From positions 1,594,501 to 1,658,500 of the forward strand of contig NZ_CP021376.1 of assembly GCF_002157875.1 (NCBI RefSeq): 64,000 bases of DNA. Direction: 5' to 3'. The notes beneath the pieces are model-generated. The model did not search any database, had not been told where the DNA came from, and saw nothing but the letters and a program-made list of their open reading frames with translations. Position 1 is the stretch's first letter, and each line of letters opens with the position of its first letter. Below, piece after piece: positions 56,400 to 64,000 of the stretch. The DNA is from Oceanisphaera avium. Its GTDB lineage: Bacteria; Pseudomonadota; Gammaproteobacteria; Enterobacterales; Aeromonadaceae. Made by a program: the position numbers and the translations under genes.

Positions 56400-59300
56400 A
56401 TGACTTACCAAAACCCCTCTGCTTTATCTCGCCTAGCTTGGTTAATGCTGCTGATTGGCTTGTTATTAACAGGTCTTAGCGCCTGGCAAGTAAAAACAAC
56501 CTCCGATAATCACGCCATTAAAGAATTTGCCTTCGTTGCCCAAAAAATCACCACCACCATTACCGAGCGCTTAAACGCCTACGCCTTAGTATTACGCGGC
56601 GCGGCCGGCTTATTAAATGCCGCCGATACGGTGACTCGTCAAGAGTGGGAAACTTACGTTAGTCAATTACAGCTAATGAAAAACAAGGCAGGTATCTCTG
56701 GTATTAACTTTGCCGAATATGTGCCAGCTAACCAATTGGCCAGTCATACGGCGCGTATTCAAAGTGAAGGTTTTCCTCATTATCATATTTGGCCAAGTTA
56801 TCCGCGTGCCGCTTATAGCTCACTGATTTATTTAAGCCCCTTCGATGCTCGCAACCAAAAAGCGTTAGGTTATGACATGTTTAGCGAGCCGACCCGCCGC
56901 CAAGCCATGAGCCAAGCGCGAGACTCAGGCGAGGTTAGCTTAAGCGCTAAAATAGCATTGATTATTGAAGATACCGAAAGCCCGCAAGCGGGCACTGTCA
57001 TGTATGCGCCTGTGTATCGCCCAAATAGCGACTTAACTACCCTCGCACTACGCCGTGCTGCACTACTAGGCTGGGCGGTGGGCGGCTATCGTATGGATGA
57101 TTTAATGGAAAGCTTATTAAGCCAGTGGCAAGCGCCGCAAGAAAAAGCCATAACCATGGAAGTCTTTGATGGCCAAGCGAGCCCTGAGCATCTGTTATAT
57201 CAAAGTCACCCCTTAGCCAAGCCCCACACCTCCAGCATGTTCTCTCAACAACAGACCGTTAATTTTAATGGCCGCATTTGGCTGCTACATTTTGATTATT
57301 TAAACCCTCAGCACGTGGTCAGTTATCAGTATGTTTGGGCCACCCTCCTTGGTGGCTCAATACTGAGTATATTATTGTTTTTATTGATCCAATCTTTTGC
57401 TAGAACCCGCGCTAGTGCTCGGGCACTCGCTCAGGCGCTGACTGAACAAGTTTATCAGCGTGAACAACAACTAAAAGTAGCGCTACATCGCTTAAAGACT
57501 ATCGCCAGTCGTATTCCGGGTATGGTGTTTGAATATAATTACTCGGGTGAGGGCCAAGGGCACTTTCCTTTTACCAGTGAAGGTATTCAACGCATCTATG
57601 GCATTAGCCCTCAACAAGTTCAAGAAGACGCTAATCAGCTCTTTGCCATGGTGCACCCTGAAGATATCGCCGCGGTGATCAATAGCATTAAAGAGTCCGC
57701 TATTTATCTCACACCATGGCGCCATGAATATCGTATTTATCATCCAGATGGTAAAATTAGCTGGCTTTATGGTGACTCTGAGCCCCATAAAGAAGCCAAT
57801 GGCTCCATCACTTGGTACGGCTTAGTCACTGATATTACCGAGCGCAAAGAAGCCGAATTAGCGCTAAAAGCCGCCAACCAACAAACCTTACTATTTCGCC
57901 AAGCCCTCGATCACGTGCCCTCTTGTATCTTTATGAAAGATATTAATATGCGCTATACCTACGCCAATAGAGCAACGTTAGAGTTACTTGGTTGTAATAG
58001 CGCCATGTTACTTGGAAGCACAGGAGAAGAGTTTTTAGGCCCGGAGACAACGGCGCAATTAAACTTAATAGATAAAAAGACGCTGCAAGGGGAGCCTCAC
58101 CAACTGGAGTTTTCATTAACGGGGCCCAATGGCCATGTTACGCATTTCTTAGATGTTAAAACGCCTATCTTTGATGAGGCTGATCATTCGCAAGTCATCG
58201 GTATGCTCGGTATTGCCACCGACATCACCTTGCTTAAGGCAAATGAACAAAAGTTAGAATATCAGGCGCACTACGACACCCTCACTAAATTACCCAATCG
58301 GTTAATGCTTGCCGATCGCCTGCACCAAGCCATGTTGCAAGCCAGTCGTCATCAACAATCTATTGCCATTATTTATTTAGATTTAGATGGCTTTAAATAT
58401 ATTAATGATAATTATGGCCACGACGCCGGAGATGAGCTATTGAGGGCAGTAGCGGCGCGCATGAAAAATGCGATTCGCGACGGTGATACGTTGGCCAGAT
58501 TAGGCGGCGATGAGTTTGTGGTTATTTTGCTTGATATTGAACAGCTCAGTGACAGTTTTCCGCTGTTAAAGCGTTTACTTGATGCAGCCTCACGCCCAGT
58601 ATTATTAAATCATCATCGCTTACAAGTAACGGCCAGTTTAGGAGTGACTTTTTATCCTCAACCCGAGGTACTCGAACCTGAACAATTAATCCGTCAAGCG
58701 GATCAAGCTATGTATCAAGCCAAGCTAGCTGGTAAAAATCGCTATTATTTATTTGATAGTGAACAAGCACGCAATATGCGCGAGCACCATCAAAGTGTGG
58801 AGCATATTAATCGCGCCTTACTCGCCAAAGAATTTACTTTATATTATCAGCCGAAAGTAAATATGCGCACCGGCGCTATTATCGGCGTAGAAGCGCTTAT
58901 TCGCTGGCAACACCCAGAGCAAGGCTTACTTAGCCCTAATCGTTTTTTACCTTTTATTGAAGAGCACCGACTTGCAGTGGAAGTCGGCGATTGGGTTATC
59001 GATAGCGCGCTTCAGCAAATTTTAAATTGGCAACAACAAAACATTGCCTTAGGTATCAGCATTAACATTGCCGCACGCCATCTGCGCCAAGTGGACTTTG
59101 CGGCTAAATTAGCCGCTCATTTAGCTAACTACCCCAGTATTGCTCCTAATATGCTTGAGCTGGAAGTATTAGAAACCAGTGCCTTAGGAGATTTAGCCTT
59201 AGTGTCTAAAACACTAGAAACGTGTCGTGATCTTGGGGTGGGTATCTCATTGGATGACTTTGGTACCGGCTATTCTTCGCTTACTTATCTGAAGCGCTTA

Positions 59301-59936
59301 CCCACTCACACCATTAAAGTGGATCAGAGCTTTATTCGCGATATTTTAGAAGACCCAGAAGACTTAGCGATTCTTGATGGCGTACTCAGTCTAGCTAAAG
59401 CCTTTGGCAGGCAAGTGATCGCCGAGGGGGTAGAAACCTTAGCTCACGGTGATACTTTATTGCGCATGGGCTGCCACTTAGCTCAAGGCTATGGCATCGC
59501 CCGCCCTATGCCAGCGACAGAGGTACCTACTTGGCTGGCTAACTGGCAGCCGCCTGCTCGCTGGCTTGAAACTCGCCAACTTCATCGCGATGAGTTTTCT
59601 TTGTTATATGCAGGATTACAGCACAAGGCATGGATTGATGACTTAGTATTAGCCGTGCAACATAATAGTGAGACTTGGCCCCTGTTTGATAGTAATCAAA
59701 GTCACCTTAGCCAGTGGTTAAACAGTCAACCTAACATCTCCGCCACGCGATTAAATTACCAAACCGCGCTGAGTCAAAAAATTAAACAATGTGTAGCAGA
59801 GCTTGCGAAATATTATGCCAATCACGGTGCTAAAGACGCGAATAGCCAACTAATTTCTCAACTAGATGCGCTATGTGAATTAAAAGCTCAATTAATAAAA
59901 GAATTAGAAGAGTGCATGAATGACTCAAAAAGGTAA
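56400..59936 (+). CDS. CHASE-PAS-PAS-GGDEF-EAL cyclic di-GMP enzyme
   Basis: A 1178-residue inner-membrane protein. A membrane segment (residues 12-28) is followed by a periplasmic CHASE-type sensor (about 40-290: ERLNAYALVLRGAAGLLNA, GINFAEYVP) and a second segment (about 315-330). Then come PAS 1 (about 370-480), PAS 2 (about 495-610), a GGDEF domain with intact ARLGGDEFVV (about 700), and an EAL domain with VEALIRWQHPEQG (about 835) and LDDFGTGYSSLTYLKRLP (about 955). Both catalytic motifs are intact, so it may make and break c-di-GMP. The last 115 residues look helical, with HKAWIDDLV recalling a CZB zinc-binding start. Confidence 0.92.
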   Translation: MTYQNPSALSRLAWLMLLIGLLLTGLSAWQVKTTSDNHAIKEFAFVAQKITTTITERLNAYALVLRGAAGLLNAADTVTRQEWETYVSQLQLMKNKAGISGINFAEYVPANQLASHTARIQSEGFPHYHIWPSYPRAAYSSLIYLSPFDARNQKALGYDMFSEPTRRQAMSQARDSGEVSLSAKIALIIEDTESPQAGTVMYAPVYRPNSDLTTLALRRAALLGWAVGGYRMDDLMESLLSQWQAPQEKAITMEVFDGQASPEHLLYQSHPLAKPHTSSMFSQQQTVNFNGRIWLLHFDYLNPQHVVSYQYVWATLLGGSILSILLFLLIQSFARTRASARALAQALTEQVYQREQQLKVALHRLKTIASRIPGMVFEYNYSGEGQGHFPFTSEGIQRIYGISPQQVQEDANQLFAMVHPEDIAAVINSIKESAIYLTPWRHEYRIYHPDGKISWLYGDSEPHKEANGSITWYGLVTDITERKEAELALKAANQQTLLFRQALDHVPSCIFMKDINMRYTYANRATLELLGCNSAMLLGSTGEEFLGPETTAQLNLIDKKTLQGEPHQLEFSLTGPNGHVTHFLDVKTPIFDEADHSQVIGMLGIATDITLLKANEQKLEYQAHYDTLTKLPNRLMLADRLHQAMLQASRHQQSIAIIYLDLDGFKYINDNYGHDAGDELLRAVAARMKNAIRDGDTLARLGGDEFVVILLDIEQLSDSFPLLKRLLDAASRPVLLNHHRLQVTASLGVTFYPQPEVLEPEQLIRQADQAMYQAKLAGKNRYYLFDSEQARNMREHHQSVEHINRALLAKEFTLYYQPKVNMRTGAIIGVEALIRWQHPEQGLLSPNRFLPFIEEHRLAVEVGDWVIDSALQQILNWQQQNIALGISINIAARHLRQVDFAAKLAAHLANYPSIAPNMLELEVLETSALGDLALVSKTLETCRDLGVGISLDDFGTGYSSLTYLKRLPTHTIKVDQSFIRDILEDPEDLAILDGVLSLAKAFGRQVIAEGVETLAHGDTLLRMGCHLAQGYGIARPMPATEVPTWLANWQPPARWLETRQLHRDEFSLLYAGLQHKAWIDDLVLAVQHNSETWPLFDSNQSHLSQWLNSQPNISATRLNYQTALSQKIKQCVAELAKYYANHGAKDANSQLISQLDALCELKAQLIKELEECMNDSKR

Positions 59937-60134: not shown

Positions 60135-61646
60135 ATGCATCATCCCGTATTTTTGGCGGCAGGGTTAGCACTTACCTGGGGGCTAAGCGCTCCGTTATTT
60201 GCCGCAGAACAGCTGGACTCCTCGCAGTCAGCTTCATTAGTTGAACAAGGTCAATATATCGCTAAAGCCGCTGACTGCTTAGCCTGTCATGTAGGACCCG
60301 ATGGCACTCCTTATGCTGGCGGCAAGCCAACTGCTACCCCAATGGGCGATATCATAGCCCCTAATATTTCATCTTCTAAAAAATACGGTATTGGCGATTA
60401 TTCAGTTAAAGATCTCACACGGGTATTACGAGATGGCAAGACTCCGTCTGGCCGACATCTGTATCCGGCCATGCCCTACCCCGCTTACCGAGGCATGACA
60501 GATGAAGATATTAAATCACTGCATGCTTATTTAAAAACCACCGCCGCTGTTGAGCAAAAACCTAGCGCTAAAACTGATCTTAAGTTTCCTTTTAGCATGC
60601 GTTGGCTAATGATTGGCTGGAATGCTAAGAATTTAGATAATTACCAAGCTCCCCAAGGCTTAGATGACCAAGCGGCGCGCGGCCAGTATCTGGTGGATCA
60701 CTTAGGTCACTGTGGCACCTGCCATACACCGCGCAATAGCATGATGGGCAGTGATTACGATCAATACTTAGGCGGTGCACAACTTGGCAACTGGTTTGCT
60801 CCTAATATCACCAGTGATCAAAAATCCGGTATAGGGGCATGGAGTGAGCAACAATTAGCAGATTACTTTAAAACCGGTCAAATGGGTTATGCCGCTCAAG
60901 CCGCCGGCCCTATGGCTGAGGCCGTGCATTACAGCTTGCAGTATTTAAATGAAGAGGACCGCTTGGCCATCGCCGCTTATTTGAAGTCTGTTCCCGCTAT
61001 TGCTGATGACGCACAACAACAACCTGTGCTCGATACTCGTATCAACGAGACCTTACTTCATCGCGAACCGAAAGTAACACAGGTTACCCGTTATGAAGAA
61101 AGAGAGCTCGCTCAACAAGGTCTTAAGCAAGAAGATATCAGTGATCCCGACTCTGCTAACGGCTTATATGCTCAGTACTGCGCATCTTGTCATGGCGATG
61201 AGGGTTACGGGCAAACGACCTCTTTTTATGCCAGTTTGGTGGGCAATACCACGGTGCGCAGTGCCAACCCTAGAAACTTAGTAGCCGTTATTCTTAAAGG
61301 CGTCGAATTTAGAGGCGCGACCCCTAAGCCCCTGATGCCAGGCTTTGAAGACAAACTCAACCATCAACAAATTGCGACGCTAGCCAATTATGTACGCACT
61401 GAATTTGGCGCGTATTCAAACAGTGAAATAAGCACAGATGATGTGGCGTATATCGCCTCAGGCAAACAGAAAGTGTCGGCTCTTATTCGCTACGCCCCAT
61501 TACTAGCTTGGCTTGGCATTATCCTAGTGGCCGTTATTATCATCGCCGGTGTGTGGTACTGGCGCCGGCGTCGTCCAGTGCGCGTTAATCCAACCGTCTC
61601 TCAGACCAACCTCGATCAACCCCCTCACAATAGGAGCGACCTATGA
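60135..61646 (+). CDS. Triheme membrane-anchored cytochrome c
   Basis: A 503-residue exported cytochrome. A signal peptide (LTWGLSAPLFAAE) is followed by three heme motifs CLACH (about 49), CGTCH (about 193) and CASCH (about 352). A C-terminal helix (LLAWLGIILVAVIIIAGVWYW, about 455-476) and an Arg-rich tail anchor it in the membrane with the hemes outside. The order resembles the cytochrome subunit of membrane alcohol or gluconate dehydrogenases. Its stop overlaps the flavoprotein start by four bases, so it is probably the electron acceptor of that enzyme, passing electrons to the quinone pool or oxidases. Confidence 0.9.
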   Translation: MHHPVFLAAGLALTWGLSAPLFAAEQLDSSQSASLVEQGQYIAKAADCLACHVGPDGTPYAGGKPTATPMGDIIAPNISSSKKYGIGDYSVKDLTRVLRDGKTPSGRHLYPAMPYPAYRGMTDEDIKSLHAYLKTTAAVEQKPSAKTDLKFPFSMRWLMIGWNAKNLDNYQAPQGLDDQAARGQYLVDHLGHCGTCHTPRNSMMGSDYDQYLGGAQLGNWFAPNITSDQKSGIGAWSEQQLADYFKTGQMGYAAQAAGPMAEAVHYSLQYLNEEDRLAIAAYLKSVPAIADDAQQQPVLDTRINETLLHREPKVTQVTRYEERELAQQGLKQEDISDPDSANGLYAQYCASCHGDEGYGQTTSFYASLVGNTTVRSANPRNLVAVILKGVEFRGATPKPLMPGFEDKLNHQQIATLANYVRTEFGAYSNSEISTDDVAYIASGKQKVSALIRYAPLLAWLGIILVAVIIIAGVWYWRRRRPVRVNPTVSQTNLDQPPHNRSDL

Positions 61647-63256
61647 GCAGTAGCCCCTTAACTCGGCGTGACTTATTAGTAATGCTTGGCCAAGCCGCAG
61701 GTGCTGGCGCCGTTTACTCCGCCATGAGCTCACTGGGCTTGGCTCAGGCCTCTACTTTTACCGATGAACTCGACTTATCCGCCGCGCCCAACGGTAGCAG
61801 TGTCTTAATATTGGGCTCAGGATTGGGCGGCATGACCGCCGCCTACGAATTGCGAAAAGCAGGTTATGACGTCACTATCTTTGAATACACTGAACGCCCC
61901 GGCGGGCGCTGCTTTACCATTCATAGTGGTGATACTGTTACCGATTTATCCGGCGAAACCCAACATTGTAGCTTTGCCCCTGGCAACTATATCAACCCAG
62001 GTCCTTGGCGTATTCCATACCATCATTATGGTGTGCTGCATTATTGTAAGAAATTTGGCGTTAAGCTCGAGCCCTTTATTCAACTTAACTACAATGCCTA
62101 CGTCCATGCACAAAATGCTTTTGGTGGTAAGCCAAAACGCGTGCGCGAAGTGCTAACCGATGTACATGGCTACACTTCTGAATTACTGGCTAAAGCAACC
62201 GACCAAAACGCACTCGATGAATACCTCACTGCAGAAGACTGTTCAGCACTCATCGCCCAGTTAGGTGAGTGGGGTCGACTAAGTGAAGGGAATAAATATC
62301 AAAAAAGCCTTAAAGCCAGTGAGTTTCGCGGTTACGAGCACTGGCCGGCAGGCGGCTTAATGGCAAAACCCTCTCCCAGTGAGCCTCTTGAATTTAAAGA
62401 GCTATTACACTCTGGTTTATGGGGCATGTTGCTCGATTACTTTAATACTGAATACCAGCACACCATGTTTGAGCCGGTAGGAGGTATGGAGCAAATAGCT
62501 AAAGGTTTCGCTAAAGAAGTAGGCGATTTAATTGAGTATCGCCGCCAAGTCGTGCGCATTGAGCAATCAGATAGCAAAGTCACTGTTCACTATATAGACC
62601 CTGATAAACCTGATGAGGTGATGACTCGCAGCGCCGATTGGTGTGTCTGTAACATTCCGTTATCGGTATTGAGCCAAATTCCGGTACAAGCCTCGCCGGC
62701 ATTATTACAGGCAATTGCCGCTGTACCCTATGGTAGCTCGACTAAAACGGGACTTGAATTTAAGCGTCGTTTCTGGGAGCAAGATGAGAATATTTTTGGT
62801 GGCGTAAGTTATACCGACTTGCCCATTACCACTATCTCTTATCCCGCCTATGATTATTTCAGTGATGGTCCGGGCGTATTACTGGGTGCCTATACTTTTG
62901 ATGATGTAACCAGTTATACCATGTCGGCCATGAGTGCTAGAGAGCGCGTAGCCGCAGCGGTGGCCTACGGTAAACAAATCCATCCCCAGTATGAAAAAGA
63001 ATTCCTATCAGGAGTTTCTTGGTCTTGGCACCGTTGCCCTTGGACACTGGGTTGCTACGGCGTATGGACTGATGAGCTCAGAGAAGCTCATTACGATACC
63101 TTGTGTGCCATTGATAATCGCTTAGTACTGGCCGGTGAGCATTGCTCTTATATTCCAGCTTGGATGGAGGGCGCTATTCTTTCTGGTATGGATGCAAGTC
63201 AACGGCTCCATGAAAAAGCCACCGCCAACATGAAAAATGGAGGCGATCATGCATAA
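61643..63256 (+). CDS. Tat-exported flavin amine oxidase-like enzyme
   Basis: A 537-residue FAD protein. The twin-arginine leader LTRRDLLVMLGQAAGAG (residues 6-22) sends it folded to the periplasm. The FAD Rossmann motif LGSGLGGMTAAYELRKAG and the second motif YTERPGGRCF identify the monoamine oxidase/L-amino acid oxidase group. The C-terminal FAD motif AGEHCSYIPAWMEGAILSG is present. The substrate is unknown; an amine or amino acid is expected. The linked triheme cytochrome suggests a dehydrogenase rather than an H2O2-making oxidase. GAGCGACCT precedes the ATG, and the next gene begins inside its last codons. Confidence 0.9.
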   Translation: MSSSPLTRRDLLVMLGQAAGAGAVYSAMSSLGLAQASTFTDELDLSAAPNGSSVLILGSGLGGMTAAYELRKAGYDVTIFEYTERPGGRCFTIHSGDTVTDLSGETQHCSFAPGNYINPGPWRIPYHHYGVLHYCKKFGVKLEPFIQLNYNAYVHAQNAFGGKPKRVREVLTDVHGYTSELLAKATDQNALDEYLTAEDCSALIAQLGEWGRLSEGNKYQKSLKASEFRGYEHWPAGGLMAKPSPSEPLEFKELLHSGLWGMLLDYFNTEYQHTMFEPVGGMEQIAKGFAKEVGDLIEYRRQVVRIEQSDSKVTVHYIDPDKPDEVMTRSADWCVCNIPLSVLSQIPVQASPALLQAIAAVPYGSSTKTGLEFKRRFWEQDENIFGGVSYTDLPITTISYPAYDYFSDGPGVLLGAYTFDDVTSYTMSAMSARERVAAAVAYGKQIHPQYEKEFLSGVSWSWHRCPWTLGCYGVWTDELREAHYDTLCAIDNRLVLAGEHCSYIPAWMEGAILSGMDASQRLHEKATANMKNGGDHA

Positions 63257-64000
63257 AACGACTCTCGCACTATTATTGCTGACTAGTATGACGGGTGCGC
63301 ACGCTCAGCTTAGAGTTGATGACAACTCAACGACTGAAGATACCCGTGCGCAAGCTAGCGCTTTATCTGCTACGACAGAAGAGCCAGCAACTGAGCAAAA
63401 ATCAGCAGCGAAAAAAGACACCACTAACCAACATGAGTCTTCTGCTAAAGAAAAGGACACGAACAATAACGAGACCACTCGTGAGCAAGCGGCGACTGAC
63501 AATAAAGAAGCCGCTACCACTCAAGAGCGCGATGCGGCTAAGAAGAATGAACAGGCGGCGAAAAAAGAGTCGACGAATAAACACGAGTCTGCGGCTAAAG
63601 AAAAAGACTCAACAAATAACGACAGTCGTAAACCCTCTTCTTCTGACAATGAAAAGCGCTCTACAAACCAAGATGTCAAACAGGATCGAGACTCTTCTAA
63701 CGATAATGAAAAGGCGGCTAAAAAAGACATAACCAATAAACAAGACTCTTCCGCTAAAGAAAAAGACACTACGGGGCAAGAGGCCACTAACACATCTGGC
63801 TCTACTAATAAAGAGGCAGATACAGATCAAACAGCTAAGCAGTCGTTAGACGAGCAGGAACCATCACAGAAAGATAAAGGTAAAAATAAAGATAAAAAAA
63901 ACGCTGACAGCAAGACCTCTCAGCAAACAGATAAACGAGATCTCAAAGAAAGCACTGCATTAATTAAAAATGCCGCTAAACGCGGTACACCACCTTGGAC
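63249..64000 (+). CDS. Secreted repeat-rich protein, third gene of the cytochrome/flavoprotein operon (partial)
   Basis: The 250 visible codons start at ATG 63249, eight bases inside the flavoprotein gene, and run off the right edge. A signal peptide (MHKTTLALLLLTSMTGAHA) is followed by about 210 residues very rich in Lys, Glu, Asp, Thr, Asn and Ser. Three copies of a 19-residue unit of the form AAKK(D/E)xTNxxxS(S/A)AKEKD lie at residues 53, 103 and 156, spaced 50-53 residues apart. The low-complexity part gives way to STALIKNAAKRGTPPW at the end, perhaps the start of a folded domain. No family is recognised. Confidence 0.7.
   Translation, partial: MHKTTLALLLLTSMTGAHAQLRVDDNSTTEDTRAQASALSATTEEPATEQKSAAKKDTTNQHESSAKEKDTNNNETTREQAATDNKEAATTQERDAAKKNEQAAKKESTNKHESAAKEKDSTNNDSRKPSSSDNEKRSTNQDVKQDRDSSNDNEKAAKKDITNKQDSSAKEKDTTGQEATNTSGSTNKEADTDQTAKQSLDEQEPSQKDKGKNKDKKNADSKTSQQTDKRDLKESTALIKNAAKRGTPPW

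Follow-up and report, generated by a model that had tools for sequence, protein, structure and literature searches.

We report a three-gene operon at the end of a 64,000-nucleotide (nt) stretch of the Oceanisphaera avium genome (contig NZ_CP021376.1, positions 1,594,501 to 1,658,500; G000:C1:1594501-1658500, hereafter the window), which probably encodes a periplasmic L-amino acid dehydrogenase system that feeds respiration via two haem proteins. All three genes lie on the plus strand: gene 1 (60135..61646) encodes an exported trihaem cytochrome c of 503 amino acids, gene 2 (61643..63256) a flavin adenine dinucleotide (FAD) flavoprotein of 537 amino acids, exported by the twin-arginine translocation (Tat) route and proposed as the L-amino acid dehydrogenase, and gene 3 (in-window part 63237..64000, signal peptide and low-complexity K/E/D/T/N/S/A linker) a secreted monohaem cytochrome c. 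An earlier note on this DNA had described three tightly overlapping genes, and they do overlap in one direction, by 4 nt between genes 1 and 2 and by 8 or 20 nt between genes 2 and 3 (gene 3 starting at 63237 or, more likely, at 63249, with GGAG close upstream), with all frames open.

In the proposed mechanism, the gene 2 product would transfer a hydride from its L-amino acid substrate to FAD, and the resulting imino acid would hydrolyse to 2-oxo acid and ammonia with the help of an exported RidA encoded elsewhere. Reduced FAD would then be reoxidized by a class I cytochrome c, one electron per step, rather than mainly by O2; ancestrally this acceptor would be the gene 3 monohaem protein, whose low-complexity region may act as a leash or spacer before the haem domain. 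The trihaem protein would have been added to this two-protein core, most simply once; it would receive the electrons after the gene 3 haem and deliver them at the membrane, with ubiquinone the likeliest acceptor, as for its relatives, and a cytochrome c/cbb3 branch the alternative. The genome encodes a bc1 cytochrome b and a cbb3-type cluster (COX1 family, haem-bearing neighbours identified by eye), and therefore both the ubiquinone and the cytochrome c exits exist. Three further COX1-family genes are present, one of which, by length, may encode a nitric oxide reductase.

The proteins of the operon

Signal peptides and membrane anchors were assigned from motifs and hydropathy. Gene 2 has the twin-arginine N-terminus SPLTRRDLLVMLG (RR codons at 61664..61669, plus strand) and an amine-oxidase domain over residues 61-522, which at motif level agrees with the earlier description of a Tat-exported amine oxidase-like flavoprotein; across its family (alignment A1) R9 is invariant and R8 nearly so. 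The closest solved analogue by both sequence and fold, matched over the full length, is the L-amino acid oxidase of Rhodococcus opacus (2jae), for which we know of no cytochrome partner; it is described as an oxidase, whereas gene 2 is proposed to encode a dehydrogenase. Residues R123, Y417 and K368 are invariant in 92/92 rows of the family alignment and align, by alignment only, with 2jae chain positions 83, 370 and 322. Monoamine oxidase B (MAO-B) has a lysine equivalent to the conserved flavin-side one. L-amino acid oxidases have an Arg and a Tyr at the substrate carboxylate and a conserved Lys near the flavin (PMC9331233, available part).

That the substrate is another amine, as for NicA2 and the monoamine oxidases, and not an L-amino acid, is quite improbable; database names read 'flavin monoamine oxidase family', and the shared fold does not fix the substrate. 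The label NicA2-like was rejected as too narrow, the nearest solved fold being that of an L-amino acid oxidase. NicA2 was not named in the best 60 of 173 sequence matches of gene 2, nor in the 50 rows listed for each fold comparison, which excludes nothing, membership of the NicA2-centred clades 1-3 of PMC12224317 included.

Gene 1 has CXXCH motifs at residues 48 (CLACH, 60276..60290), 193 (CGTCH, 60711..60725) and 349 (CASCH, 61179..61193), all on the plus strand, and Pfam Cytochrom_C in three stretches. A C-terminal hydrophobic stretch (residues 456-474, 61500..61556, plus strand; hydropathy 2.79) is followed by RRRR, in keeping with the membrane-anchored triheme cytochrome c named in the earlier note. 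In phmmer searches the protein matched the cytochrome subunits of fructose dehydrogenase (7w2j_C; 339 bits, residues 28-481), glucose dehydrogenase (304 bits) and alcohol dehydrogenase (242 bits), and on this homology it is of their cytochrome-subunit type, with a membrane anchor predicted from hydropathy. A second trihaem cytochrome of 462 amino acids, 37% identical to gene 1 (residues 31-424), is encoded elsewhere in the genome (G000:C1:774105-776376, L164:4105-6376); it overlaps a dihaem protein with a SoxA/TsdA-type domain, with which it probably forms a thiosulfate dehydrogenase pair.

Gene 3 is cut by the window end at 254 of 407 codons. The host genome is one contig of 2.9 Mb, so the missing end could be read: the full gene (L002:3737-4960, ending at window-equivalent 64460) encodes 407 amino acids, in the order signal sequence (by eye), linker of about 225 residues, short segment and cytochrome c domain, with the haem motif CQACH at residue 312, beyond the window. 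The linker consists mostly of K, T, A, D, S, E, N and Q and has no Phe, Trp or Tyr. The earlier note had called this a secreted K/E/D/T/N-rich repeat protein; the composition stands and irregular repeats are present (three copies of 92 nt, two of them 61 and 75% identical to the third; Tandem Repeats Finder gave only one 6-nt array), but 'repeat protein' is the wrong name because the full product ends in a cytochrome c domain. A stand-alone repeat protein was rejected for the same reason.

The gene 3 haem domain resembles the third domain of the trihaem proteins. Its best 5 of 13 solved matches are third domains of trihaem subunits, and it is 36% identical (E 3e-13) to residues 344-440 of the trihaem protein of its own operon. 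A profile of monohaem partners from loci without a trihaem matched 16/16 trihaem third domains, at 39-64 bits, and 0/32 first and second domains at E up to 10; the monohaem partner is therefore a sibling of the trihaem third domain.

The flavoprotein and monohaem core in relatives

Relatives were sampled by similarity, as 6 of 88 plasmid records (chosen from the best 20) and the best 80 of at least 590 confirmed stretches from species genomes. A one-haem open reading frame (ORF) matching the gene 3 haem domain at 60-230 bits lies beside the flavoprotein in 86/86 of them, a figure not valid for remote relatives, since all 86 have identity of at least 48%; it is downstream in all except Deinococcus L033. 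In that Deinococcus radiodurans plasmid the upstream cytochrome partner (L033:6140-6952) has a hydrophobic N-terminus and a long S/T/N/Q-rich linker before the haem, which is unrelated to that of gene 3 but resembles it and hints at a leash.

Adding this locus and ten further ones brings the set to 97, of which 93 have a monohaem partner. One remote relative (L125:5954-8641, 36% identity) has instead a dihaem ORF between flavoprotein and RidA, and no haem-motif ORF was found in the stretch around the flavoprotein in the other three (L128-L130). Two of these three, L128 and L129, are remote relatives with RidA beside the flavoprotein; their flavoproteins are possibly true oxidases, which would make them informative comparators for oxygen reactivity. 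In 58/97 loci the flavoprotein has a RidA gene no more than 3 kb away on its own strand. Nearly all RidA proteins beside flavoproteins begin with a Sec or lipoprotein signal by eye (in a few loci, such as L070 and L096, the overlong ORF call allows no judgement), and this points to imine handling outside the cytoplasm.

These counts bear on the question of whether gene 2 encodes a periplasmic L-amino acid oxidase that passes electrons to O2 to give peroxide, with the cytochromes in an auxiliary role such as removal of peroxide or a secondary outlet. In its favour, the R. opacus enzyme is an oxidase, 3/97 loci are without a neighbouring haem protein, and one tested enzyme with an adjacent cytochrome, that of B. 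anthina, reacts with both O2 and cytochrome c (PMC12224317, Table 1; available part). We nevertheless regard an oxidase as improbable: a monohaem partner is present in 93/97 loci, an adjacent cytochrome gene is reported as the stronger predictor of dehydrogenase function (PMC12224317, available part), and cytochrome c maturation mutants of Gluconacetobacter diazotrophicus lose most of their indole-3-acetic acid (IAA), making 5% of the wild-type amount (cited in PMC5053998, available part).

Distribution and role of the trihaem version

A trihaem gene lies directly upstream of the flavoprotein in 17/97 loci, and gene 3 is kept in all 17. They belong to this genome, a congener (L035, genome G012), Cobetia, Halomonas halodenitrificans, eleven Psychrobacter, Marivita and a Roseinatronobacter plasmid, and so span several families of Gammaproteobacteria as well as Rhodobacterales. 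The occurrence of the three-gene set in other genomes had been set beforehand as a test in the earlier note, and 16 further loci pass it, one of them (L065:5743-6896, uncultured Psychrobacter) with the trihaem gene in two overlapping open frames, which is a broken gene or an assembly error. In Halomonas halodenitrificans a RidA gene (L037:4777-5274) lies upstream of the trihaem gene, the only nearby RidA among the 17 trihaem loci, and this four-gene arrangement may be an intermediate.

On a quick flavoprotein tree the trihaem loci are all on one side of a single branch (Shimodaira-Hasegawa-like approximate likelihood ratio 91, below 95), placed among lineages of the RidA type; with shuffled trihaem labels, 15.9 changes were needed on average. 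Three congeners (G005, G015 and G022; 57-58% identity) have the RidA layout and lie elsewhere on this tree. The grouping fits a trihaem acquired once and then transferred between families, as far as the flavoprotein sequences indicate. A trihaem tree (33 rows, L065 left out) mixes the flavoprotein-linked trihaems with database proteins of unknown context and needs 8 changes vs a shuffled mean of 11.1, which speaks neither for nor against one trihaem origin. Of the 88 loci where both flanks cover at least 1.7 kb, 16 have the trihaem only, 1 has both, 53 have RidA only and 18 have neither (Fisher p 2e-7, kinship ignored); as the tree shows a single trihaem gain, there is only one independent pair, which leaves no room for a corrected test.

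When the non-core neighbours at the 17 loci were compared by BLAST, no telling neighbour was shared beyond the core; only three were common to a non-Psychrobacter locus and another genus, and these look like housekeeping genes by eye. Only three columns (486, 501 and 515) are diagnostic of the trihaem-clade flavoproteins, and no clear docking patch was seen among them. The C-terminal membrane stretch is missing from six of 16 intact trihaems, which form a Psychrobacter group (L050, L051, L058, L060, L061 and L067). Gene 3 has a lipoprotein-like signal in 5/6 of this group, and the membrane anchor may have moved between subunits there, but gene 3 has this kind of signal in some Psychrobacter loci with an anchored trihaem too.

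The route of the electrons beyond the flavin can be read in more than one way. It is possible, if short of probable, that they pass from the flavin to the gene 3 haem, the trihaem and then a high-potential cytochrome c/cbb3 branch, by-passing quinone, with the trihaem as a docking relay only. Such a route is favoured by the small cytochrome being the only one in most relatives (80/97 loci are without an adjoining trihaem), by the cbb3 genes of this genome and by the six unanchored Psychrobacter trihaems. On the other side, the trihaem relatives are subunits of membrane dehydrogenases that reduce ubiquinone, and an extra trihaem would be pointless if a soluble route were enough, which is an argument and not data. 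No statement on ubiquinone reduction by fructose dehydrogenase was found in the available parts of PMC6472588 or PMC8348568.

We consider it rather unlikely that the trihaem accepts electrons directly from the flavoprotein, as in fructose dehydrogenase, with gene 3 as a left-over or alternative acceptor. In fructose dehydrogenase the third haem is the point of electron entry. For such a direct route speaks the sibling relation, seen in the matches above, between the third domain of the operon's trihaem and the haem domain of gene 3. Against it, all 17 trihaem loci retain gene 3, with a pre-haem region of 73-311 residues (n=17) that exceeds the 41-170 residues seen elsewhere (n=76; start codons picked by rule, kinship uncorrected), which together suggest that gene 3 is still used. 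The K/E/D/T/N linker reaches its great length in this genome; L035 has a shorter one.

RidA and genomic context

No RidA gene lies beside the operon at this locus (L002). An exported RidA is encoded about 1.08 Mb away (G000:C1:574245-574769, L165:4246-4770), and it occurs in 6/23 genomes of the genus, exactly the six with the flavoprotein; the two genes adjoin in four of these and are apart in G000 and G012. Among 369 genomes of the class the flavoprotein (E<=1e-80) is found in six and RidA (E<=1e-12) in six, with five shared (p 6e-10, uncorrected for linkage or relatedness).

At 0.48-0.49, the G+C content of genes 1 and 2 is close to that of the window (0.465). Promoter-like sites show no excess (7 vs 8.2 in shuffles), and there are 11 terminator-like sites vs 5.4 in shuffles. 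The operon most likely ends after gene 3, because tRNA, 5S and 23S rRNA genes follow on the opposite strand. Upstream of the operon (window 56400-59936) is a gene for a 1178-amino acid protein with GGDEF and EAL motifs by eye.

Comparison with known systems

In the available part of PMC5053998, transposon mutagenesis of G. diazotrophicus led to lao-cccA-ridA (GDI2456-2454), genes for an L-amino acid oxidase, a cytochrome c and RidA; neither of the two lao mutants produced IAA, and a large tryptophan peak remained. Two of the lao primers in that paper translate to YPSHGYF and QVIHPNY, in agreement with the family motifs YPS.GYF and Q.IHP.Y of alignment A1, and these tie GDI2456 to the gene 2 family over short stretches only. 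A second line of background comes from purified proteins: many Tat-signalled amine-oxidase-fold enzymes with an adjacent cytochrome c gene are dehydrogenases, in a survey that started from NicA2 and named monohaem and dihaem c4 cytochromes as partners (PMC12224317, available part). RidA genes cluster with FAD-dependent amine oxidases, and RidA hydrolyses imines made by L-amino acid oxidase (PMC4433059, available part). The earlier suggestion is right in kind: an exported amine-oxidase-fold enzyme very probably hands its electrons to a cytochrome c, and the operon occurs in other genomes as well.

Several points weigh against a cytochrome-linked L-amino acid dehydrogenase. The R. opacus enzyme, the nearest solved relative, is an oxidase; the structure model of gene 2 is weak in part (mean predicted local distance difference test score 76.7, 72 residues below 50); and 6/16 intact trihaems lack the C-terminal stretch. 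Co-occurrence with RidA is expected wherever the genes are linked, as in 4/6 genus and 4/5 shared class genomes, while at the thresholds used G202 has RidA without the flavoprotein and G299 the flavoprotein without RidA, and an exported RidA is found in only 2/16 trihaem-clade genomes or records, a set that includes one lone plasmid record. The tie to GDI2456 consists of two primer-encoded motifs only. Because the lao insertions reduced the transcripts of cccA and ridA too, the phenotype cannot be assigned to one gene of the three, and its authors state that the role of the cytochrome needs further work (PMC5053998, available part). Oxygen reactivity predicted from sequence is called unreliable (PMC12224317, available part).

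If the proposed dehydrogenase system is correct, cytochrome-using amine-oxidase-fold dehydrogenases would extend to relatives of L-amino acid oxidase, and the sugar-dehydrogenase trihaem module would prove able to serve another catalytic family, linking the oxidation of amino acids in the periplasm with respiration. Many proteins that now bear the names flavin monoamine oxidase or tryptophan 2-monooxygenase may, on this reading, be cytochrome-linked L-amino acid dehydrogenases, and the part played by cccA in auxin formation by the lao route becomes directly testable.

The catalytic subunits of fructose, glucose and alcohol dehydrogenases are GMC flavoproteins or pyrroloquinoline quinone enzymes. 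Gene 1 has near full-length homology to the trihaem subunits of the fructose and glucose dehydrogenases (7w2j, 8hdd), shows a C-terminal hydrophobic stretch and was likewise compared with the membrane-bound alcohol dehydrogenase (8gy2). No catalytic partner of these known kinds adjoins it; its catalytic neighbour is gene 2, of the amine-oxidase fold, together with a separate monohaem cytochrome.

As in lao-cccA-ridA, an L-amino acid oxidase-family flavoprotein (predicted to be Tat-exported there too) is followed by an adjacent cytochrome c gene and is associated with RidA; RidA is adjacent there and unlinked here, no trihaem is mentioned in the available part of PMC5053998, and the long low-complexity linker is that of gene 3 here. 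Like the NicA2/CycN-type dehydrogenases (PMC12224317, available part), gene 2 combines the amine-oxidase fold and, at motif level, a Tat signal with an adjacent exported cytochrome c (gene 3; 93/97 loci), but its nearest fold is L-amino acid oxidase, whereas that survey is centred on NicA2. The terms triheme, tri-heme, three heme and amino acid oxidase have no match in the text of PMC12224317, and no description of the trihaem version was found in the literature searched, from which subscription journals are mostly absent. The earlier note's undescribed respiratory system is therefore narrowed: the flavoprotein and small-cytochrome core is already known (PMC5053998 and PMC12224317, available parts), and its pairing with a sugar-dehydrogenase-type trihaem membrane cytochrome seems not to have been described before. 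Tentatively, an amine-oxidase-fold flavoenzyme may have captured the trihaem module of sugar and alcohol dehydrogenases once, giving a membrane-bound L-amino acid:ubiquinone oxidoreductase with the leashed monohaem, a detached sibling of the third trihaem domain, as a swinging electron arm from flavin to trihaem. The system is most likely a cytochrome-linked L-amino acid dehydrogenase of a kind glimpsed before in genetics and biochemistry, its new part being the trihaem-bearing version.

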